In this document: positions 27,548 through 36,791 of the stretch, in pieces
Numbering within the stretch: the first letter of the stretch is position 1
Layout of the letters: every line of letters begins with the position of its first letter
Assembly: GCF_902506195.1 (NCBI RefSeq)
Contig: NZ_LR732817.1
Span: forward strand, 124,001-188,000
DNA length: 64,000 nt
From: Citricoccus sp. K5
GTDB taxonomy: Bacteria > Actinomycetota > Actinomycetes > Actinomycetales > Micrococcaceae
Direction: 5' to 3'
The notes under the pieces: model-generated
Told to the model about the DNA's origin: nothing
The model's database searches: none
The model's input: only the letters and a program-made list of their open reading frames with translations
Made by a program: the position numbers and the translations under genes

Positions 27548-28696
27548 TCAGGCGAACGCGATGCCGTCCATCAACTTGCGGGCCGTGCGCACGCTGCCGG
27601 TGACGAGGACGGTGGGTTCGCCGGACGCTGATGACCGGCCTGCCTCTGAGGCGTCCCCAGAATCGACCTCCACCACCAGGTCCGTGTGGCCCGTGGGATG
27701 CTCCACCCGCGTCTCGGCCGCATCGTGGTCACCGCTCAGACCCGCCACCACCGTGCCTGGCACCTGCCAGGCCACCGCCACCGAAGCCCCGGCGAACACT
27801 CCGATGGCCTCATGGACGCGCTTCGGGATGAAGCACCGCGTGTTGAACGTCCCCCCGCTCCGGGCCGGAGCCACCAGGCAGACCTTCGGCACCGTGGTCT
27901 CGCTGACGTCCCCCAGCCCCATGGCGACGCCGGCCTCGAGCCGCACGGCCTCGACCGCGGCGCACAGCTCGGCATCGGCCTCCAGCGCGGCGGGCTCCTC
28001 GGTCCCCTCCAAGCCCAGTGCCGCGGCATCGATCACGACGACGGGCATCCCGTTGTCCACGCACGTCACCTCGACCCCGGCGAAGGTATCGATGCGGTTC
28101 CCCGTGGGGAACAGGGCTCCGCAACTGGACCCGGCGGTGCCCTGGTAGTCCAGGACCACCGGGGCCGCGGTCCCCGGCACCCCCGCGATCTCCGCATCGC
28201 CCTCGTACGCGACGCGACCGGCCGGCGTCGTGACCCGGGCGCGGGCCACGGAACCGGTGTTGACCATGTGGATGACCACCTCGGTGGTGCCGTCCTGGGC
28301 GGGGACGAGGCCGCGTTCGACCGCGAAGGGACCGATGCCGGCGAGGATGTTGCCGCAGTTCTGCCGGTCAGAGACGGTCGCCTCGTCGACGGAGACCTGG
28401 AGGAACAGGTAATCCACTCCGCCGTCTGAGCGCGGAGAGACCACGGCGACCTTGCTGGTCAGGGGGTGCGCTCCACCCAGCCCATCAATCTGCCGTGCGT
28501 CCGGGGAGCCCATCAGTCGAAGCAGCAGGGCATCCCTGGCGGCCGGATCGGCGGGTAGATCCTCAGCCAGGAAGTACAGTCCCTTGGAGGTTCCTCCGCG
28601 CATGACCATGCACCGGACCTCGGTGGCGGGCCCGACCGGGAGAGTGTCCCTGCCGTGGTGGGCGGTTGTGGTGGGCGAGGCGGGGTCTGGGCTCAC
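27548..28696 (-). CDS. PrpF/GalD-family isomerase (4-oxalomesaconate tautomerase-like)
   Basis: 382 residues of the diaminopimelate-epimerase-like PrpF fold. Diagnostic segments are RCMVMRGGTSKGLYF near the start (MRGGTSKG is the family signature), ARQIDGLGGAHPLTSKVAVV, DRQNCGNILAGIGPFA and SSCGALFPTG. Family members isomerise 2-methylaconitate (PrpF) or 4-oxalomesaconate (GalD/LigU of gallate and protocatechuate meta-cleavage). With LigM elsewhere in the window the aromatic role is attractive, but the two cannot be told apart by eye. Start: GTG at 28696 has GAAGGA 7 bases upstream; the in-frame ATG (28735, 28732) and TTG (28744) lie in the divergent operator and lack ribosome sites. Confidence 0.85.
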   Translation of the reverse strand: MSPDPASPTTTAHHGRDTLPVGPATEVRCMVMRGGTSKGLYFLAEDLPADPAARDALLLRLMGSPDARQIDGLGGAHPLTSKVAVVSPRSDGGVDYLFLQVSVDEATVSDRQNCGNILAGIGPFAVERGLVPAQDGTTEVVIHMVNTGSVARARVTTPAGRVAYEGDAEIAGVPGTAAPVVLDYQGTAGSSCGALFPTGNRIDTFAGVEVTCVDNGMPVVVIDAAALGLEGTEEPAALEADAELCAAVEAVRLEAGVAMGLGDVSETTVPKVCLVAPARSGGTFNTRCFIPKRVHEAIGVFAGASVAVAWQVPGTVVAGLSGDHDAAETRVEHPTGHTDLVVEVDSGDASEAGRSSASGEPTVLVTGSVRTARKLMDGIAFA

Positions 28697-28745
28697 GGTG
28701 TATTCCTTCGCCAAATCGGCTGCGGCCTGCATCATCTGTGACAAA

Positions 28746-28757
28746 ATTGTTTACAAT
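28746..28757. promoter_or_regulatory. GntR-type palindromic operator between PrpF/GalD gene and GntR gene
   Basis: ATTGTTTACAAT has perfect ATTGT/ACAAT arms, the typical shape of an FCD-type GntR site. It contains TACAAT (28752-28757), a good -10 for the divergent GntR gene, so binding would repress that gene and probably the isomerase gene too. Confidence 0.6.
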
Positions 28758-28793
28758 CAGTTCCATCATGGCTGACGAGCGGGGGAGATTCCA

Positions 28794-29459
28794 GTGGCAA
28801 CAGCAACGCGGACCAGTGCTGCGGTGAACGCGACCGACGTGGCCGACCAGATTCGCGCGGCCATCTTCGCTGGCGAGCTGGTGCCGAACCAGCGGCTCGT
28901 GGAGGCTGACCTGGCCGAGATGTACGGGGCCAGCCGCGGCCATGTGCGCACCGCCCTGTCTGAGCTGACGGTCGAGGGCCTCGTCGAGCGGATCCAGAAC
29001 CGCGGTGCCCGCGTCCGGTCCGTCCCCGTGGAGGAGGCGATCGAGATCGTGGAGGTCCGCTCTGCCCTCGAGGCGCTGTGTGCCGCACGGGCGGCCATGC
29101 GCATCACCGATGCCGAGGCCGAGGAGCTGCGTCAGATCGGGCGGAGCATGGAAACCGCCGTCGAGACCGGGGATCAGGCCGCCTACGCCCAGGGCAACAC
29201 AGACCTGCACTCCACCCTGATTCGCCTGTCCGGACAGAAGACGGCCGCCGCGACGATCGACCGGCTCCGCGCCCAGGCCGTGCGCTTCCAGTACCGCCTG
29301 TTCGCCAAGCCGGGACGCTCGCAGCAGTCCCTGCCCGAGCATCTGGCCATCATCGACGCCGTCTGCGCGCGCGAGCCGGAGGAAGCGGCCCGGGCCATGC
29401 GCGAGCACCTGATGTCCGTGGGTGCGGCCATCGAGGAATCGGTGCGGTCCGGGGCCTGA
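28794..29459 (+). CDS. GntR-family (FCD) transcription regulator
   Basis: 221 residues. Winged helix-turn-helix at residues 15-75 (QIRAAIFAGELVPNQRLVEA, YGASRGHVRTALSELTVEGL), then an all-helical FCD ligand domain with metal-binding His in DLHSTLIRLSG and the later PEHLAIIDAV. It probably controls the divergent PrpF/GalD-like gene through the palindrome at 28746, with the isomerase's pathway intermediate as ligand (inference). GTG start at 28794 after GGGGGAG. Confidence 0.92.
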   Translation: MATATRTSAAVNATDVADQIRAAIFAGELVPNQRLVEADLAEMYGASRGHVRTALSELTVEGLVERIQNRGARVRSVPVEEAIEIVEVRSALEALCAARAAMRITDAEAEELRQIGRSMETAVETGDQAAYAQGNTDLHSTLIRLSGQKTAAATIDRLRAQAVRFQYRLFAKPGRSQQSLPEHLAIIDAVCAREPEEAARAMREHLMSVGAAIEESVRSGA

Positions 29460-29504: not shown

Positions 29505-30878
29505 TCAATTCATGCTCAACGGCTGCTTGCTGGTCTCCTTGGCCAGGGCGACGGCGATCAGCGACACGGCGGCAGCGGCCATCAGGTACCAGCCGGGAGC
29601 TATGGTGCTGCCGCTGGTGGCGATCAGCCAGGTGGCCACCAGGGGTGCGGTCCCGCCGAAGAGCGCGTTGGAGAGGTTGAAGCTCACGGCGAACCCTGAG
29701 TAGCGGACCTTGGTGGGAAACATCTCGGCCAGAAAGCTCGGCAGGGTGCCGTCGTTGAGGGTGAGCATCCCGCCGAGCAGGATCTGCACCAGGAGGACCA
29801 CGAGGAAATTGTCCGTGTCCAAGAGATGGAACGCCGGGATGGTGAAGAGCAGGAAGGCCACCGATGCGCTCATCAGCACCCGTTTGCGGCCGAAGCGGTC
29901 CGAGAGTGAACCCGTGACGAAGATGAAGCCGATGTAGGTCACCAGGGCAACCGTGGTGGCGAAGTAGGACGAGGTCTGGTCGAGGCCGAGCTCCTCGGAA
30001 AGATAGGTCGGCATGTAGCTGAGGATGACGTAGAAGCCCACGGCGTTCAGCAGCACGGCACCGGCCGCTTGCACGAGGCTCGCCCAGTGGTCGCGGAACA
30101 GGGAACTCACGGGGGCCTTGACTGCTTCATCCTTGACGGCCATCTCGCGGAAGGCCGGGGTGTCCTCCAGCTTGCTGCGGATGTATCGGCCGATCAGGCC
30201 CATGGGTGCGGCGAGCAGGAAGGGCAATCGCCATCCCCAATCGGTCATCTGCTGGCTGTCCAGCGTTGCCGTCAGGATCGTGGCGATGAGTGACCCGAGC
30301 AGCAGGCCGGTCGCCGTGCTGGCGGGGACCACTGCGGCATAGACGCCGCGCTTCCCTGGTGGGGCGTATTCCACGAGGAAGGCCGAGGCCCCGGCGTACT
30401 CGCCGGAGGCCGAGAAGCCCTGGATGAGGCGGAGCAGGAGCAGCAGGAGCGGCGCCCAGATGCCGATGGTGACGTAGCCCGGGATGAGAGCGATGAGGAA
30501 GGTGGCCAGGGACATCAGCAGGATGGACCAGGACAGGGCGACCCGGCGTCCGAAGCGGTCGCCGATGTGACCCCAGAAGAAACCACCGAGCGGGCGCACC
30601 AGGAAGGACACGGCGAAGAGCGAGAAGGTCAGCATGAGGCCCGTGGCCGGGTCTGAGTCGGGGAAGAACACCGCTGTGATGGTGACAGCGAGGTAGCCAT
30701 ACATGGCGTAGTCGAACCACTCGACGAAGTTGCCGATGAAGCTGGCTGTGACCACCCTCCGGCGCGTGGCGGTGTCCACCGGAGTATGGGTCTGCCCGCT
30801 GAGGGTCGAGCGCGTTCCGGCGGCGGGTGGCGGCTCGGTGGTGCCGGGGGCAGCAGTGCGGAGCGATGGATCGGTCAC
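29505..30878 (-). CDS. MHS-type MFS transporter (ProP-like metabolite:H+ symporter)
   Basis: 457 residues, twelve spans. The MHS signature is clear: IGNFVEWFDYAMYGYL at the start, GGFFWGHIGDRFGRRVAL, LIQGFSASGEYAGASAFLVE and EMFPTKVRYSGFAVSFNLS. Such carriers move betaine, proline, alpha-ketoglutarate or shikimate with protons. The promoter carries the same composite element as the creatinase and BCCT genes, so creatinine, creatine or a product such as sarcosine is a plausible substrate (inference). GTG start; ribosome site weak. This gene lies downstream of the IclR regulator on the same strand, with 133 bases between them. Confidence 0.9.
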   Translation of the reverse strand: MTDPSLRTAAPGTTEPPPAAGTRSTLSGQTHTPVDTATRRRVVTASFIGNFVEWFDYAMYGYLAVTITAVFFPDSDPATGLMLTFSLFAVSFLVRPLGGFFWGHIGDRFGRRVALSWSILLMSLATFLIALIPGYVTIGIWAPLLLLLLRLIQGFSASGEYAGASAFLVEYAPPGKRGVYAAVVPASTATGLLLGSLIATILTATLDSQQMTDWGWRLPFLLAAPMGLIGRYIRSKLEDTPAFREMAVKDEAVKAPVSSLFRDHWASLVQAAGAVLLNAVGFYVILSYMPTYLSEELGLDQTSSYFATTVALVTYIGFIFVTGSLSDRFGRKRVLMSASVAFLLFTIPAFHLLDTDNFLVVLLVQILLGGMLTLNDGTLPSFLAEMFPTKVRYSGFAVSFNLSNALFGGTAPLVATWLIATSGSTIAPGWYLMAAAAVSLIAVALAKETSKQPLSMN

Positions 30879-30897
30879 GGTGGTCTCATTTCAGCAG

Positions 30898-30963
30898 TTG
30901 CAATGAATGCAATCGGGTTGCGCGATTGCTACCAGTCTGCTGATGTGACGTAGGCCACGTCAA
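30898..30963 (-). promoter_or_regulatory. Promoter and shared composite operator, copy 1 (MFS gene)
   Basis: Read on the minus strand: -35 TTGACG (30963-30958), 18-base spacer, -10 CAGACT (30939-30934). The spacer contains a GTGA-N6-CCAC half-palindrome. Downstream of the -10, at 30898-30929, lies a block whose plus-strand reading is TTGCA-N5-TGCAA-N4-GTTGC. Copies 2 and 3 share this block. The operator sits about 8 bases further from the -35 than in the other copies. Confidence 0.65.
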
Positions 30964-31011
30964 GGGCTTGAGTCCTGGGAGGAGCGGTGTTCTGGCGGGG
31001 ATGCGCGGCCT

Positions 31012-31800
31012 CTAGGCCGGGGTCCATCCCAAGCGCAGGGAAATGCGCCGGGCGGCCTCCCGGCAGGCGGTGGCGAGGCGGGCGATCTCGTCCTGGGGAA
31101 CGCGGTAGAAGGGGGCGGCGACTAGAACGGCTGCCACCACCTCGCCTCGGTGGTCCCTCACAGGGGCAGCGATGCCCACTTCGTCCGGGGAGGTCTCGCA
31201 GTGGTTGACCGCGTGGCCATCCTGCCGCACGGTGGCGAGCCGCTCGAGGTACTCGTCCACGTCTACGGCGGACTCGAAGGCCACGCGACCGGAGGACACC
31301 AACTCACGCACCCGGTCTGGGCCGGTGTGCGCCAGGAAGACCTGGACGCTCGCGCTCAGGCCGGTGGCGTAGCGGCTGCCCAACACGGAAGTGTGCTTGA
31401 CCTGCTGTCGGCTGGGAACTTGTTCCACGGTGACGGCGGTGGTGCCGTCCCAGATGTTCAGGGCGGTCGTCTCCCCGGTGGTCTCGGAGAGCTCGCGAAG
31501 GTCTTCCATGGCGACGCGCCGGACATCCAGGCCCGCCAGCAGGGGTCCGGCCACGGCGATCAGTCCCAGGCCCAGCCGATACTTACGGGAAGCCTCATCC
31601 CGCTCGACCACCTTCTCCTGCTCGAGCGTGGCGAGGATCCGGGACACGCTGGACTTGTGCAGCCCCACCTGAGCGGCGATCTCGGTGACCCCTTGAAGCG
31701 GCTCATCCACCGTGAAGCACCGGATGACCTGCAGGACATTGACGATGACGGACGCGCCACGGGCGCTGTCGCCCGTTTCGGTCCCAGCGGTGGTGGCCAT
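31012..31800 (-). CDS. IclR-family regulator of the creatinine island (predicted)
   Basis: 262 residues. N-terminal helix-turn-helix (GVTEIAAQVGLHKSSVSRIL, residues 38-60) and C-terminal IclR effector domain (TSVLGSRYATGLSASVQVFL, GIAAPVRDHRGEVVAAVLV). It lies between the MFS and creatinase genes, both carrying the shared operator, so it is the best candidate for the regulator binding it; the ligand may be creatine or creatinine. Start ATG 31800 is chosen for its GGGAGAAG ribosome site over the ATG at 31827. Confidence 0.92.
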   Translation of the reverse strand: MATTAGTETGDSARGASVIVNVLQVIRCFTVDEPLQGVTEIAAQVGLHKSSVSRILATLEQEKVVERDEASRKYRLGLGLIAVAGPLLAGLDVRRVAMEDLRELSETTGETTALNIWDGTTAVTVEQVPSRQQVKHTSVLGSRYATGLSASVQVFLAHTGPDRVRELVSSGRVAFESAVDVDEYLERLATVRQDGHAVNHCETSPDEVGIAAPVRDHRGEVVAAVLVAAPFYRVPQDEIARLATACREAARRISLRLGWTPA

Positions 31801-31841
31801 GGAGCTTCTCCCGATGGTCGTTCTCACGATGGGGCCCCCGA

Positions 31842-31874
31842 GTGGGGGTGAGCAGCGGTGCTGCCCACCCCCAC
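31842..31874 (-). terminator. Strong stem-loop between creatinase and IclR genes
   Basis: GTGGGGGTG (31842-31850) pairs with CACCCCCAC (31866-31874), continued by GCAGC/GCTGC around a GGT loop with one mismatch. Both flanking genes are on the minus strand, so the hairpin would reduce read-through from creatinase into the regulator gene. No U-run is present. Confidence 0.5.
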
Positions 31875-31926
31875 GATGTCACGGCCGGCGTCCCCGCGGG
31901 GTGAACTCCACCGGCTGAGGGCCGGG

Positions 31927-33183
31927 TCAGGCGTCGATGATGTTGTTCTCGGGACCGAAGCCGAACTTCGTGATGTTCTCCACGCCGCCATCCTCTCCGA
32001 TGACCAAGATGTCGTGCTCGCGGTAACCACCGGCGCCCGGCTCACCGTCCATGACGGTGATCATCGGCTCCATGGAGACCACCATGCCCGGCTCCAGGAC
32101 CGTGTCGATATCCTCGCGCAGCTCCAGACCGGCCTCGCGGCCGTAGTAGTGGGACAGGACCCCGAACGAGTGGCCATAGCCGAAGGTGCGGTTGGGCAGC
32201 AGGCCGTGGCCGATGTAGATCTCGTTGAGCTCGTGGGCGATGTCCTGGCAGACGGCACCCGGCTTGATCAGCTCGAGGCCGCGGCGGTGGACCTCCACGT
32301 TGACGTTCCACAGTTCCAGGCTGCGCTCGTCCGGCTGGCCGAGGAACAGGGTGCGCTCCAGGGCGGTGTAGTAGCCGGAGGTCATGGGGAAGCAGTTCAG
32401 GGACAGGATGTCCCCGCGCTGCAACTGGCGGGTGGTGGCCCAGTTGTGGGCGCCGTCCGTGTTGATGCCGGACTGGAACCAGACCCAGGTGTCCCGGACC
32501 TCGCGGTGCGGGAAGGTCTTGGCGATCTCGTGCACCATGGCCTCGGTGCCGATCAGGGCGACCTCGTATTCGGTGATGCCCTCGCGGATGGCCGCCTTGA
32601 TGGCCTCGCCGCCGAGGTCGCCGATGCGGGCGCCGTGCTTGATGACCTCGATCTCCTCGGCGGACTTGATCATGCGCTGGCGCATGGCGTCCTGGGACAC
32701 GTCCAGCAACTCGGCGCCGTCGAAGGCGTCCTGGATGCGCTGGCGGGTCAGGCCCGGCAGGAAGTCGTCCTCCACGCCGATCCGGGAGGCCTTCACGCCG
32801 TCCCGCTTCAGGGCCTCCTGAAGGCCGTAGAAGAAGTTGTCCCGCTTCCAGTCGGTGTACACGATGTTCTCGCCGTAGCTGGTGCGCCAGGGCATGCCGG
32901 CATCGATGTTGGCGGTGACGGTGGTGGAGTTGGTGGCGGTGACCACCAGGGCGTAGTTGCGCCCGAAGGTGGTGTAGAGGAAGTCCGAGTAGTACTTGAT
33001 GCCGTGGTAGCTGGTGAGGATGACGGCGTCCAGGGATTTCGCGGCCATGATCTGGCGCAGGCCGGTCAGGCGGCGCTCGAACTCGGCGTCGGAGAAGGTC
33101 AGCTGCTGCTTGGAGCCGTTGTGCAGGGTCTTCAGGCGCTCCAGCTCGGAGACGGACTGCGCGGTGCTGGGGGTGGTGGTCAT
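31927..33183 (-). CDS. Creatinase (creatine amidinohydrolase)
   Basis: 418 residues of the M24B 'pita-bread' fold. It hydrolyses creatine to sarcosine and urea. It follows Pseudomonas creatinase closely: LTSYHGIKYYSDFLYTTFGR, ANIDAGMPWRTSYGENIVYT, WFQSGINTDGAHNWATTR with the catalytic His246 (His232 in Pseudomonas numbering), FGYGHSFGVLSHYYGREAGL and EPMITVMDGEPGAGGYREHD. The metal-ligand set of true aminopeptidases P is not kept, as expected for creatinase. Start ATG 33183 after GAGGAG. It is transcribed from its own promoter with the shared operator. Confidence 0.95.
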   Translation of the reverse strand: MTTTPSTAQSVSELERLKTLHNGSKQQLTFSDAEFERRLTGLRQIMAAKSLDAVILTSYHGIKYYSDFLYTTFGRNYALVVTATNSTTVTANIDAGMPWRTSYGENIVYTDWKRDNFFYGLQEALKRDGVKASRIGVEDDFLPGLTRQRIQDAFDGAELLDVSQDAMRQRMIKSAEEIEVIKHGARIGDLGGEAIKAAIREGITEYEVALIGTEAMVHEIAKTFPHREVRDTWVWFQSGINTDGAHNWATTRQLQRGDILSLNCFPMTSGYYTALERTLFLGQPDERSLELWNVNVEVHRRGLELIKPGAVCQDIAHELNEIYIGHGLLPNRTFGYGHSFGVLSHYYGREAGLELREDIDTVLEPGMVVSMEPMITVMDGEPGAGGYREHDILVIGEDGGVENITKFGFGPENNIIDA

Positions 33184-33205
33184 GGTGTTCTCCTCGGAAA
33201 GTAAG

Positions 33206-33262
33206 TTGCATCGAATGCAACGGCGTTGCATTCATTGTGGGATGTGCGGTGGGTCACGTCAA
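33206..33262 (-). promoter_or_regulatory. Promoter and shared composite operator, copy 2 (creatinase)
   Basis: Minus strand: -35 TTGACG (33262-33257), 17-base spacer, -10 CACAAT (33239-33234). The spacer holds GTGC-N6-TCAC (one mismatch to GTGA-N6-TCAC). The operator block at 33206-33237 reads TTGCA-N5-TGCAA-N4-GTTGC on the plus strand and overlaps the -10 and the start site, the classical position for repression. Leader of about 40 bases before the ATG. Confidence 0.7.
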
Positions 33263-33287
33263 GGGGCACGACGGCGGCCCGTGGCGG

Positions 33288-34118
33288 TCAGCGGGGCAGG
33301 TCCAGTTCCGCGGTGAGATCGGTCCCGAGGTCCGCGGCGACCTGCTCGTAGAGCAGCCGGCCCTTCTCGGGCGAGGAGCCGTCCGGCGCCGAGAGGCAGC
33401 CCGTGTCCGGGGTGCGCGAGGACACCGCGGGAAGGCGGTCGAACCGCGGCAGGTCGGCCGGGGGGTGGCTCACGGCGCGGTCCATGGCCACGAGTTCGGG
33501 GCGCAGATGCAGCATGAGCGAGGTCTCCAGGACCCCTCCGTGCTCGATTTCCCAGCCTGGGAAGCCCTCCGGGTAGACCGCCGCCAGCGTGTCCTCGGAG
33601 ACGTAGTCCCAGTAGGAGAGCAGGAGGACGGTGGGGCTGTCCCGTGGCGGTCCGGCGCTGGCCCTGGCGCCGGCGCCGGTGTCGGCCAGCGCCAGATCCG
33701 CGGCCTCGTACAGGAACTGGTAGTTCTCGTAGTGCCCGTTGAGCACCACGAGGTTGCGGACGCCCTGGCGCAGGAACCCGGCCATGATGCAGCGCGCCTG
33801 GGCGATCAGGGCCGCGGCGTCCAGGCTGACGGTGCCGGCCAGGTGGTCGCCGCCGCCGGACTTCTGCTGCGACTTGTAGCCGTAGGCCAGCGGCTCTGCC
33901 ACCTTGGCGCCGATCCGGGACCCCACCGCCTCGGCGATGGTCGAGGACAGGATGGCGTCCGTTCCCAGGGGCAGGTGGGGGCCGTGCTGCTCGAAGGCTC
34001 CGGCCGGCAGGATCACGGTGGAGTGCTCTCCGGCGGCCCAGTCGCGGTAGGTGTGGGCGTCCAGGTGGGCCAGGCGCGTGGGCTGGGCCGGGGCCGGGGT
34101 TTCGGGGGTGCTGGTCAC
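33288..34118 (-). CDS. Creatininase (creatinine amidohydrolase)
   Basis: 276 residues. It opens creatinine to creatine. The creatininase-family metal ligands are visible: Glu, His and Asp in LPAGAFEQHGPHLPLGTDAI, and His and Glu in VVLNGHYENYQFLYE. A long segment between (SGGGDHLAGTVSL) matches creatininase rather than the mycofactocin peptidase MftE branch. It starts with GTG overlapping the BCCT stop (GTGA), so transporter and enzyme are translationally coupled. The family also includes other amidohydrolases, but a creatinase gene next door makes creatininase the sensible call. Confidence 0.92.
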   Translation of the reverse strand: MTSTPETPAPAQPTRLAHLDAHTYRDWAAGEHSTVILPAGAFEQHGPHLPLGTDAILSSTIAEAVGSRIGAKVAEPLAYGYKSQQKSGGGDHLAGTVSLDAAALIAQARCIMAGFLRQGVRNLVVLNGHYENYQFLYEAADLALADTGAGARASAGPPRDSPTVLLLSYWDYVSEDTLAAVYPEGFPGWEIEHGGVLETSLMLHLRPELVAMDRAVSHPPADLPRFDRLPAVSSRTPDTGCLSAPDGSSPEKGRLLYEQVAADLGTDLTAELDLPR

Positions 34119-35896
34119 GTCTTCGGTGTCCTCTCGGTGGTCGTCCGGTAGCCGTAGGGGTCCTGCGGCTCCGTGAGGGTCCCAGGACCCACGCCGAGGC
34201 GCGGATCGGGGCGGGGGATACCGTCCTCATCGCACAGCTCGTCCTCCGCGCGGTGCCCCGGGTCGTTGATGTCCTTCTCCAGCTGCCGGGTCTCCCGGGT
34301 CCGGGACCGGAGGCGCCGGACGAGGTTGATGATCATCAGCACGATCACGAAGGAGAACGGGAAGCCGCCGATGATGGTGCCGGTCTGGACCGTGTCCACG
34401 GCGTCCACCCCACCGATGGACAGCAGTACCAGGGCCACGGTGGCGATGGAGGCCACCAGGACCACCCGGAACCAGGGGCCGGACTTCTTGGGGGCCGAGA
34501 CGAACTCCGCGAGGGCGTAGGTGCCGGAGTCCAGGGACGTGACGTAGTAGGTGGCCACCAGGATGGTCGCCACGATGATCAGCAGCGTGCCGATCCACGG
34601 CACCATCTCCAGCATCGAGAACAGGGCGGAGGAGGTGTCCTCGGCCGCGTCGGCGGAGATCTGCCCGGACTCGTTGTCGTAGTGGATGCCGGCGGAGCCG
34701 ATGACGCCCACCCAGACCATGACGATCAGGGACGGGATGATGGTCACGCCCAGGACGAACTGGCGGATGGTGCGGCCGCGGGAGATGCGGGCGATGAAGC
34801 CGGCCACGAAGGGCGAGAAGGCGATGACCCAGCACCAGATGAACACGGTCCACCAGCCGTTCCAGCTGTCCGACCAGTCCGCCAGCGGCGTTCCGGCGCC
34901 CTCGGCCCCGGCGAAGAAGCTCATCGGGATGAAGTGCTGGAAGAACGAGCCGAACGTCTGGGACATGTTGGAGAGCAGGTAGACCGTGGGGCCGAAGACG
35001 AAGACGGCGACGACCAGCACGATGGACAGGATCGAGTTCGTCTCGGAAATGCGCTTCATCCCCTTGTTGACGCCCAGGAACGCTGAGACGGCGGTCAGGA
35101 GGCCGAAGGCGAGGATGACGATGACCCACACCAGGGTGCTGCTCTCGATCGGCAGCACCTGGGTGGCGCCGGAGGTGAACTGCATGGCCGCGAAGCCGAA
35201 CGACGTGGCCAGTCCGAGCACGGTGGCCAAGATGGCCAGCAGCTCGATCACGACGCCGGCCGGCCGCTGGACGCGTCTCGGCAGCAGGTCCACGGTCGCC
35301 TCGCGGAACGTGAGGGTCTTGCCGAGGTTGTGGTGGGAGTAAGCCAGGCAGATCGCGACGACGCAGTACATGGCCCAGGCGGTCAGGCCCCAGTGGAAGT
35401 AGGTCCACACGATCCCGCCCTCGCCCGGGTTCGCACCCGTGGGGATCACGGGGGTCCCCTCGCGCAGCATGACGGGCTCCGCCACGGACCAGAAGATCAG
35501 GCCGATGCCCTGGCCGCAGGCGAAGAGCATGGAGTACCAGGCGAAGTTGCTGTGCTCCGGCCGCGCCTTGGGCCCGCCGAGCCGGACCGTGCCGACCTTG
35601 CTGATGCACAGCCAGGCGCAGACGCCGACGGCGATGAGGGAGTAGAGCACAAACCACCAGGTGAACCCGCCGGTGACGAAGGTCCTCAGGCGGCCAATCA
35701 GGGCAGCAGCACCCTCGGGGTTGACCGTCACGGCCACCACGGCCGCGATGATCAGCACCGGCGGCAGGATCATGATGATGGCCCGGTCCAGAGGCGGGAT
35801 GATCCGTCCTCGGAATCGCGGGAGGGTGACCGTCCGTTCGCTCCCCGCGGCGGGGCTGTCCTCGGTGACGGTGGCGGATTTCTCAGGGGTGGACAT
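34115..35896 (-). CDS. BCCT-family transporter, predicted creatinine/creatine or betaine uptake
   Basis: 593 residues, twelve spans. BCCT signatures: SNFAWYSMLFACGQGIGLIF, the GWWTVFIWCWVIAFSPFVAG block in TM8, and IARISRGRTIRQFVLGV after it. These carriers take up quaternary or N-methylated compounds (betaine, choline, carnitine) with Na+ or H+. The coupling with creatininase and the shared operator point to creatinine or creatine uptake here (inference). Start ATG 35896 with GGAGGAAG; a longer reading frame upstream runs through the promoter and is rejected. Hydrophilic N- and C-terminal tails, the latter with an Arg-rich stretch RRLRSRTRETRQ. Confidence 0.93.
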   Translation of the reverse strand: MSTPEKSATVTEDSPAAGSERTVTLPRFRGRIIPPLDRAIIMILPPVLIIAAVVAVTVNPEGAAALIGRLRTFVTGGFTWWFVLYSLIAVGVCAWLCISKVGTVRLGGPKARPEHSNFAWYSMLFACGQGIGLIFWSVAEPVMLREGTPVIPTGANPGEGGIVWTYFHWGLTAWAMYCVVAICLAYSHHNLGKTLTFREATVDLLPRRVQRPAGVVIELLAILATVLGLATSFGFAAMQFTSGATQVLPIESSTLVWVIVILAFGLLTAVSAFLGVNKGMKRISETNSILSIVLVVAVFVFGPTVYLLSNMSQTFGSFFQHFIPMSFFAGAEGAGTPLADWSDSWNGWWTVFIWCWVIAFSPFVAGFIARISRGRTIRQFVLGVTIIPSLIVMVWVGVIGSAGIHYDNESGQISADAAEDTSSALFSMLEMVPWIGTLLIIVATILVATYYVTSLDSGTYALAEFVSAPKKSGPWFRVVLVASIATVALVLLSIGGVDAVDTVQTGTIIGGFPFSFVIVLMIINLVRRLRSRTRETRQLEKDINDPGHRAEDELCDEDGIPRPDPRLGVGPGTLTEPQDPYGYRTTTERTPKT

Positions 35897-35930
35897 GTCG
35901 ACTTCCTCCAGGGGGCACAGTCGCTGGCTG

Positions 35931-35988
35931 TTGCACTTAAGGCAACGCGGTTGCGCTACAGAATGACAGTGACTCAGGTCACCGTCAA
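35931..35988 (-). promoter_or_regulatory. Promoter and shared composite operator, copy 3 (BCCT-creatininase)
   Basis: Minus strand: -35 TTGACG (35988-35983), 17-base spacer, -10 CATTCT (35965-35960). The spacer contains a complete GTGA-N6-TCAC palindrome (35969-35982). The operator block at 35931-35962 reads TTGCA-N5-GGCAA-N4-GTTGC on the plus strand and overlaps the -10, as in copy 2. Confidence 0.7.
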
Positions 35989-36006: not shown

Positions 36007-36666
36007 TCAGATGACGCTGCGGACCGCCGCGTCGAAGTGGCGGACGTGCTCGGCGGCGATGGACTCCGCCCGCTCCTGGTCGCCGGCCAGGATCGCGTCC
36101 AGCAGGCCGAGGTGCTCGCGGATGTGGCCGGCGACGTCCGGGAGGCGGTCCACCACCACGCACCAGATCCGGGTGGCGAGGTTGTCCAGGCGGATCAGGG
36201 ACTCCTCGAGATGGTGGTTGCCCGCCGTGCGGTAGACGAGCCGGTGGACGGCCAGGTCCAGCGCCATCACCTCCCGCTGCGGGGTGGTGTGGTCCAATCG
36301 CTCGATCCCCTCCCGGGCCTCCAGCAGGGCTGCGCGGGTTTCCGGGCTCACGTTCCCCGCAGCCTTGCGGGCGGCCAGGGGCTCCAGGAGCTGGCGCACC
36401 TCGGAGACGGCGGCCAGCTCGGTGATGTCCACGCGGGTGGCGAAGGTGCCCCGCCGGGGATAGGAGACGACCAGGTGATCCGTCTCGAGGCGCTTCAGGG
36501 CTTCCCGCAGCGGCGTGCGCCCGAATCCGAGGTCACTGACGAGTTGGAGTTCCTGGAGCGGCTCGCCGGGGGCGATGTCCAGCATGATCAACCGGTCCCT
36601 GAGGGCGCGGTAGGCCTGCTCGGCGAGCGAGAGGCCGGTGGGGGCAAGGTTCGTTGCGGTGGTCAT
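36007..36666 (-). CDS. GntR-family (FCD) regulator of the glyA-sox operon (predicted)
   Basis: 219 residues. Winged helix-turn-helix (ALRDRLIMLDIAPGEPLQEL, GFGRTPLREALKRLETDHLV) and FCD domain (LDLAVHRLVYRTAGNHHLEE, HIREHLGLLDAI with metal-binding His). Divergent from glyA across a 125-base gap that carries a clean palindrome, so it likely controls both itself and the glyA-soxBDAG-sdaA operon. It is a different family from the IclR upstream, so the island is under two-stage control. Confidence 0.92.
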   Translation of the reverse strand: MTTATNLAPTGLSLAEQAYRALRDRLIMLDIAPGEPLQELQLVSDLGFGRTPLREALKRLETDHLVVSYPRRGTFATRVDITELAAVSEVRQLLEPLAARKAAGNVSPETRAALLEAREGIERLDHTTPQREVMALDLAVHRLVYRTAGNHHLEESLIRLDNLATRIWCVVVDRLPDVAGHIREHLGLLDAILAGDQERAESIAAEHVRHFDAAVRSVI

Positions 36667-36709
36667 GAGGTCCTTCGGCTCGTCGGACGGTCCGCATTCC
36701 TGCAGGCCC

Positions 36710-36759
36710 TTGACGGGGTGTGATCATCATCATACTGTAGACCGCAGCTTGATATATCA
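36710..36759 (+). promoter_or_regulatory. glyA-sox operon promoter with GntR-type operator
   Basis: -35 TTGACG (36710-36715), 17-base spacer, -10 TACTGT (36733-36738). The palindrome TGATATATCA (36750-36759) lies just past the predicted start at about 36745, a repressor position and a typical FCD-GntR site. A leader of about 47 bases ends in the AGGAG ribosome site of glyA. Confidence 0.6.
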
Positions 36760-36791
36760 GTTGTCTTCAAGAGGCGTACCAGGAGATCATC

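Follow-up and report, generated by a model that had tools for sequence, protein, structure and literature searches.

What controls the creatine and creatinine genes of the soil actinobacterium Citricoccus sp. K5 (Micrococcaceae) is the question raised by a 64,000-nucleotide stretch of contig NZ_LR732817.1 (positions 124,001 to 188,000; hereafter, the window). Its minus strand encodes, in order of transcription, a BCCT transporter, a creatininase, a creatinase, an IclR-family regulator, and an MFS symporter. The original prediction held that three promoters among these genes share one composite element, consisting of a -35 TTGACG, a spacer palindrome, a -10, and a 32-base block, and that the IclR protein is the best candidate to bind it. 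The conserved core of this block reads GCAAC-N3-GTTGC-N7-GCAAC on the coding strand and lies upstream of the MFS gene, the creatinase gene, and the BCCT-creatininase unit (Table 1). Sequence comparison shows the element, where it lies, how it is conserved, and that it is coupled to the regulator gene; on this evidence, the block is very probably the operator of the IclR-family protein encoded in the window.

The three-box block in the window

Copies of the block were predicted on the plus strand at 30898, 33206, and 35931, and all three are present there, preceded by the predicted -35 and -10 sequences. The pattern originally given, TTGCA-N5-TGCAA-N4-GTTGC, recurs at all three places, with one mismatch in the BCCT copy (GGCAA for TGCAA). 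Its length of 32 bases had to be revised, as the part conserved in relatives spans 25 base pairs (bp), and the supposed overlap with the -10 at creatinase fell away, since the 25-bp core starts 4 bp downstream of that -10. A common layout holds for the creatinase and BCCT units; the MFS copy is atypical both in its TTGAC-to-block distance (42 bp vs 33 and 34) and in its middle box, and a similar operator is found in the same-genus genomes G034 and G102. In relatives, many BCCT sites carry GTTGCC...TGCAAC.

The block is enriched in the window. With up to three mismatches, the 32-base pattern matched five times against 0.49 expected, two of the matches overlapping the creatinase copy itself, and no shuffle reached five; the coding-strand 25-bp form, with up to two mismatches, matched four times (one overlapping the creatinase copy) against 0.09 expected. 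For genome-wide scans the looser pattern was discarded, having given 17 matches at up to three mismatches vs 28 in the control, and the 25-bp form replaced it. With this form, the 3.88-Mb host genome was found to contain exactly three matches at up to one mismatch, and the reversed-pattern control gave none; at this threshold, each of the three units has the operator and no other place in the genome does.

Coupling of the block to the IclR gene and the creatine genes

The window IclR protein combines an N-terminal helix-turn-helix (HTH) domain (PF09339, 1.6e-12) with a C-terminal effector domain (PF01614, 5.6e-29), both above cut-off, and the residues H-K-S-x-V-S-R of the recognition helix are invariant in 12 aligned IclR members. 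Within the family, 295 genomes, which are kin to each other and whose counts are to be read accordingly, were searched for this protein (E <= 1e-30) and for the block (<=1 mismatch), and 395 for creatinase, which matched in 178 at E <= 1e-100 with 79-97% identity among the matches listed. IclR matches were obtained in 126 of the 295 and block matches in 170. Both genes occur in 122 genomes, IclR alone in 4, creatinase alone in 2, and neither in 167. The block was present in all 122 genomes with both genes, in 3 of the 4 with IclR only, in both with creatinase only (none of these matches at creatine genes), and in 43 of the 167 with neither, where the reversed pattern matched in 48. Genomes with both genes averaged 2.54 block matches vs 0.60 in the control, and those with neither 0.32 vs 0.36. 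The block thus accompanies creatinase in relatives, as the original prediction would have it, and its random occurrence does not exceed the control rate in genomes with neither gene. As possible further operators, 26 one-mismatch matches (reversed control 5) were considered in 12 genomes, picked for having matches or for lacking one gene of the pair; they were rejected because they look like chance, the neighbourhood having been read for G017 alone.

Placement was followed in 40 family loci from 37 genomes, picked for diversity. With the window added and L095 and L096 set aside, 39 loci come from genomes that have the IclR, and 36 of these carry the block (<=2 mismatches, within ~330 bp upstream) at creatinase, MFS, BCCT, or creatininase, hereafter the regulon genes; the misses are the second creatinase-cluster copies L081 and L085, and L116, whose genome has its IclR gene on another contig. 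Leading genes, defined as having no regulon gene close upstream on the same strand, bear the block in 13/14 cases for MFS, 10/11 for BCCT, 5/11 for creatinase, and 4/10 for creatininase; where a regulon gene lies close upstream, the counts are 10/15, 0/10, 17/32, and 0/16, respectively. Among control genes, no block was found upstream of 40 iclR, 27 gntR2, or 25 serine hydroxymethyltransferase (SHMT) genes in family loci, or of 20 iclR and 11 SHMT genes in loci of other families. Autoregulation of iclR through its own operator was accordingly rejected as a rule; exceptions are L312, with a block directly before iclR, and L099, where the creatinase block lies in a gap shared with iclR. In the window, iclR follows creatinase by ~100 bp on the same strand and is therefore probably co-transcribed with it.

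Second creatinase copies were seen in several loci. The second creatinase cluster of G127 (L081, 8952-13221) matches iclR only in pieces and has no block at its creatine genes. L094, L103, and L104 each hold two creatinase copies per cluster, one with its own block or below a block-bearing MFS gene, the other without.

The association also extends beyond the cluster and beyond the family. In three same-genus genomes, MFS genes away from the creatine cluster, ~2.5 Mb away on the same contig in G060 and on other contigs in G082 and G119, carry the whole composite promoter, which is therefore not explained as a mere artefact of clustering. Together with the pairing of BCCT and creatininase described below, these genes lend weight to the proposal that the shared element ties both transporters to creatine or creatinine. 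An order-wide search returned IclR (E <= 1e-45) in 40 of 396 genomes. Of these, 13 belong to the family; 20 of the remaining 27 were taken, and each of the 20 loci has the block (<=2 mismatches) no more than 400 bp upstream of a homologue of MFS, creatinase, or BCCT (19/20 under a stricter filter that drops distant MFS proteins). A further scan covered the best 80 of 327 named relatives, whose loci overlap partly with the two sets above and which include Arthrobacter, Glutamicibacter, Pseudarthrobacter, Kocuria, Sinomonas, Nesterenkonia, Brachybacterium, Georgenia, and Nocardiopsis. Here the block (<=1 mismatch) precedes a regulon gene in 70/80 loci, and 112 of the 124 sites found sit upstream of such a gene, against none for the reversed pattern. 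In eight of the ten misses, the contig breaks off within or ahead of the IclR, creatinase, or MFS gene, and L312 has no creatinase in view.

Two genomes, G017 and G030, have creatinase but no close IclR (best matches 31% and 29% identical). Where no regulon gene lies upstream, their creatine genes show at best 5-mismatch block matches, and no TTGAC promoter was seen in the upstream stretches inspected. These genes lie below gntR2 on the same strand, which suggests that they have passed to another control. This absence of the block from creatine genes, and the near-perfect co-occurrence of IclR with creatinase, support the choice of the IclR protein as best candidate binder.

Several observations weigh against this assignment. 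The 122-genome count is genome-wide, with matches placed beside genes only among the matches listed, and the genomes are related. Within ~330 bp, no block was found at 6/11 leading creatinases (several of them second copies) or at 6/10 leading creatininases. The MFS promoters depart from the fixed spacing described below (42 bp in the window, 49 bp in the nearest relatives, G034 and G102). Block-like matches with one mismatch occur elsewhere in the creatinase-only genomes, one in G017, in front of a frame that by eye resembles a recombinase, and three in G030, all off the creatinase contig. G273 has an IclR at 58% identity and neither creatinase nor block. L256 is a true miss, in which IclR stands with a creatinase match from residue 98 on and nothing better than 5 mismatches occurs in the 1.2 kb before that match. 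Finally, one of 14 gntR2 genes in other-family loci (L201) has a 2-mismatch match upstream.

Promoter position, mode of control, and competing explanations

Among 98 promoters chosen by the block at <=2 mismatches, the TTGAC-to-block distance is 32-34 bp in 84; of the remaining 14, 8 have no TTGAC in the 60 bp before the block and 6 have one elsewhere. Aligned promoters show a TAnnnT -10 after a 17-bp spacer, with the first box ~4 bp past the -10, so that the block would cover roughly -3 to +22 relative to the presumed transcription start. Because the block stands at a fixed distance across this start, it most likely acts in repression.

The mechanism that we infer, from binding and repression to the effector and the substrates of both transporters, would run as follows. 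The IclR protein would bind three half-sites of alternating direction (GCAAC, GTTGC, GCAAC), which begin a few bp past the -10 and reach ~+22; a protein seated there would stand in the way of RNA polymerase. As long as substrate is lacking, the regulator would repress the MFS gene, the creatinase-iclR unit, and the BCCT-creatininase unit until released by a small molecule, most likely creatine. Creatine would then enter via the MFS protein and creatinine via the BCCT protein; creatininase would convert creatinine to creatine and creatinase would pass this on to sarcosine, which would feed the products of the adjacent sarcosine oxidase genes, probably under a separate GntR-type regulator.

The same protein could instead bind the block as an activator, as PcaU-type IclR proteins can; PcaU and PobR are both able to activate. 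PcaU, PobR, and HmgR are indeed cited as IclR proteins with three-box sites (PMC8222616), yet in 84 of the 98 promoters the block stands past the -10 with its spacing to the -35 fixed, which is a repressor's position, and the near-consensus TTGAC should need no help. Activation is thus improbable.

As to the effector, creatininase above cut-off is missing from 9 of 16 creatinase-bearing genomes (a sample in which 13 were picked for showing no creatininase near creatinase), and Rue61a is reported to grow on creatine and sarcosine but not on creatinine (PMC3534580); for these reasons, creatine would be a better guess than creatinine. Transporters were counted in 56 related loci, with genes taken within the fetched stretch and five loci (second copies or IclR-less) omitted. 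BCCT occurs in 22/30 loci with creatininase and 1/26 without, whereas MFS occurs in 18/30 and 20/26, which is no tie. We thus predict that BCCT takes up creatinine and MFS takes up creatine.

That the GntR-type regulator (36007-36666), rather than IclR, binds the block is very improbable, even though its gene adjoins the BCCT promoter, is common in the neighbourhood, and has the L201 match among its relatives. Both creatinase genomes that keep gntR and lack IclR have no block at their creatine genes, and the gntR2 genes of family loci, as noted, have none upstream (0/27). A different palindrome, TTGATATATCAA, occurs with up to one mismatch in 20/41 loci, both IclR-less genomes included, and lies below the -10 in the seven SHMT upstream regions inspected. 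In the window's sarcosine oxidase (sox) promoter, which lies on the SHMT side (36667-36791), TTGATATATCA follows the -10; the same form occurs in 19/40 other fetched loci and is a candidate operator of this GntR protein.

Equally remote is an RNA device in which the boxes, at the transcript 5' end, form one of two mutually exclusive hairpins: the block does lie near the presumed start, neighbouring boxes are complementary, and positions 13 and 19, which the pattern leaves free, are able to pair in 66/98 promoters if G-U is allowed, as a symmetric protein site also would, but that pair is unpaired in 32/98, the block tracks the IclR gene, and the box letters are nearly invariant (partly built in, since promoters were chosen by pattern at <=2 mismatches).

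Between -35 and -10, the original prediction placed a GTGA-N6-TCAC-like palindrome, which is imperfect in two of the three promoters (GTGGCCTACGTCAC at MFS and GTGACCCACCGCAC at creatinase). GTG and CAC 11 bp apart, in matched register, recur in 62/87 promoters whereas 500 shuffles gave 0.07 on average and never more than 2; the TCAC half varies in its first base, and 23 promoters are listed without GTG there, 14 of them from other families. The two halves move together, taking one of two registers against the -35 that differ by one base (46 and 16 promoters), which is how a site for a separate protein would behave. The palindrome and the -35 had been counted as part of the regulon element, and this did not hold up, since they also occur at other catabolic promoters. 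TTGACnGTGA-N7-CAC matched 31 times in eight genomes (reversed pattern 1), 12 times at creatine-cluster coordinates, and the 19 matches outside the cluster led to rejection of the palindrome as creatine-specific; 7 of these 19 front genes that look catabolic, transport-related, or secreted (translations read by eye), ~10 look like chance in or beside coding sequence, L231 is less clear, and one is unread. The host genome has three cNMP-binding domain matches. Read against the CRP consensus, GTGA-N6-TCAC is probably a separate, general, CRP-like element, and in the proposed mechanism GTGA-N6-nCAC would be a second site, probably for a CRP-like protein. The window sox promoter likewise has GTGA-N6-TCAT in its spacer and TTGATATATCA below; because sox and other catabolic promoters share the spacer element, the layout looks modular, in which the spacer would hold a general CRP-like site and the start an operator particular to the pathway.

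Near position 1501, L217, L218, and L237 show a TTGAC-GTGA-N7-CAC layout followed by TTCCAYGATATGAAA, which may be the operator of another regulator, possibly one of purine or allantoin use (judged by eye).

A sister regulator, known systems, and neighbouring features

Some genomes encode a second IclR at 44-50% identity, near which a variant block, GCAAC-N3-GTTGCT-N5-AGCAAC, has one base changed per half. In the creatine blocks, position 13, left free by the pattern, is T in 1%, and position 19, likewise free, is A in 2%. The gene downstream of the variant block encodes, in the one case searched, a match to N-carbamoylsarcosine amidohydrolase (1nba; 3.5e-163); a second such protein matched the isochorismatase fold only, and the others are alike by eye. 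All six variant-block loci (Table 1) have an amidohydrolase-like gene of this kind downstream, and all but L132 also show a sister IclR within the sequence retrieved. Neighbours were scanned in three loci, two of which have a hydantoinase A-B fusion gene close by. In a tree of 70 IclR proteins, whose outgroup branches are long enough for the tool to warn of it, the seven sisters make up a single clade (100/99) that arises from within the creatine proteins. The window genome has no sister, its next IclR being 32% identical. We lean, with some reserve, towards an ancestral creatine IclR with a three-box operator that duplicated, one copy taking over the second creatinine route, that of N-carbamoylsarcosine amidohydrolase, with an ATP-dependent hydantoinase-like fusion gene nearby; GTTGCA...TGCAAC and GTTGCT...AGCAAC differ in one symmetric base, so that one contact may be enough to insulate the sisters where they stand side by side in a genome. 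If so, the sister regulator would be a clean case of a duplicated repressor changing its operator.

The original prediction did not recognize the motif from the literature, although three-box sites are an established IclR architecture. Suvorova and Gelfand (2021; PMC8222616) described two IclR motif groups and three-box sites for 32 orthologous groups. The present block shares the three boxes of alternating direction with those operators; its outer pair fits the group 1 arrangement (GKTYCRYW3-4RYGRAMC, 17 bp) and its inner pair the group 2 arrangement (TGRAACAN1-2TGTTYCA, 15-16 bp). It departs from their letter consensus, GKTYC / GRAMC, in having GTTGC / GCAAC, with G for Y at the fourth base. 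The terms "creatin" and "Arthrobacter" were not found in the main text of PMC8222616, the part searched, its supplement standing apart. Likewise, the open literature searched, to which that supplement and RegPrecise do not belong, yielded no IclR regulator of creatine genes. The switch type is thus known, and its use for the creatine pathway seems undescribed; the new parts are the creatine regulon and the sister pair.

Regulators of this pathway met in the literature are AmtR, SoxR, and CahR, the last an AraC-like protein. AmtR of Corynebacterium glutamicum, a TetR-family general nitrogen regulator, resembles the present case in being an actinobacterial repressor of genes for the uptake and degradation of creatine and creatinine, although it belongs to another family, and the paper on it does not mention IclR; homologous transporters adjoin creatinase or creatininase in several species (PMC8864220). 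SoxR of Arthrobacter sp. TE1826 similarly lies in a cluster for creatinine use (soxA-crnA-creA) but is a LysR-family negative regulator of soxA (PMC4941409). CahR of Pseudomonas putida regulates creatine use, to judge from a reference title in PMC12951989, and differs in being proteobacterial.

Creatinase and creatininase are the enzymes of clinical creatinine assays. The present finding names a putative regulator, operator, and target set for their genes, predicts transporters for creatine and creatinine, and offers parts for a creatine-responsive sensor. Crystal structure 3obf, listed as a putative IclR-family regulator, aligns over the effector domain only, with 255.8 bits to the L098 protein, 162.6 to the window protein, and 107.7 to a sister-clade protein; with the effector domain of a close relative thus solved, the ligand is directly testable.

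Table 1. Features discussed in the text; window promoter coordinates were read by hand from the sequence, and variant blocks are located within their loci.
Feature	Location	Strand	Remarks
Three-box operator (predicted), MFS unit: GCAACCCGATTGCATTCATTGCAAC	30897..30921	-	one mismatch to consensus, ATTGC for GTTGC (middle box)
Three-box operator (predicted), creatinase unit: GCAACGCCGTTGCATTCGATGCAAC	33205..33229	-	perfect; sites upstream of creatinase in relatives
Three-box operator (predicted), BCCT-creatininase unit: GCAACCGCGTTGCCTTAAGTGCAAC	35930..35954	-	sites at BCCT in relatives
-35 TTGACG, MFS promoter	30958..30963	-	42 bp to block, atypical; -10 CAGACT at 30934-30939
-35 TTGACG, creatinase promoter	33257..33262	-	33 bp to block; -10 CACAAT at 33234-33239
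-35 TTGACG, BCCT promoter	35983..35988	-	34 bp to block; -10 CATTCT at 35960-35965
GTGG-N6-TCAC, imperfect CRP-like palindrome, MFS spacer	30945..30958	-	sequence
GTGA-N6-GCAC, imperfect CRP-like palindrome, creatinase spacer	33244..33257	-	sequence
GTGA-N6-TCAC, CRP-like palindrome, BCCT spacer	35969..35982	-	sequence
MFS metabolite/H+ symporter, predicted creatine uptake	29505..30878	-	present in loci without creatininase
IclR-family regulator, predicted binder of the three blocks	31012..31827	-	Pfam HTH_IclR and IclR_C; co-occurrence
Creatinase (M24 / Creatinase_N)	31927..33183	-	family-profile match
Creatininase	33288..34118	-	TIGR04448 above cut-off
BCCT transporter, predicted creatinine uptake	34115..35896	-	PF02028; occurs with creatininase
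FCD-type GntR regulator, rival binder	36007..36666	-	probably serves sox promoter instead; TTGATATATCA-like site at SHMT promoter
Variant block GTTGCT-N5-AGCAAC, L123	6395-6419	-	
Variant block GTTGCT-N5-AGCAAC, L124	6490-6514	-	
Variant block GTTGCT-N5-AGCAAC, L125	6683-6707	+	
Variant block GTTGCT-N5-AGCAAC, L126	6391-6415	+	
Variant block GTTGCT-N5-AGCAAC, L132	6680-6704	+	
Variant block GTTGCT-N5-AGCAAC, L078	5534-5558	+	

The regulon is flanked on both sides by GntR/FCD genes. The one upstream of BCCT is divergent from the SHMT and sarcosine oxidase beta genes. At the other end, a 4-oxalomesaconate tautomerase gene and a divergent GntR/FCD regulator (27548-29459) adjoin the MFS unit, and homologues of this pair occur together in the same-genus loci L089, L090, L121, and L122.

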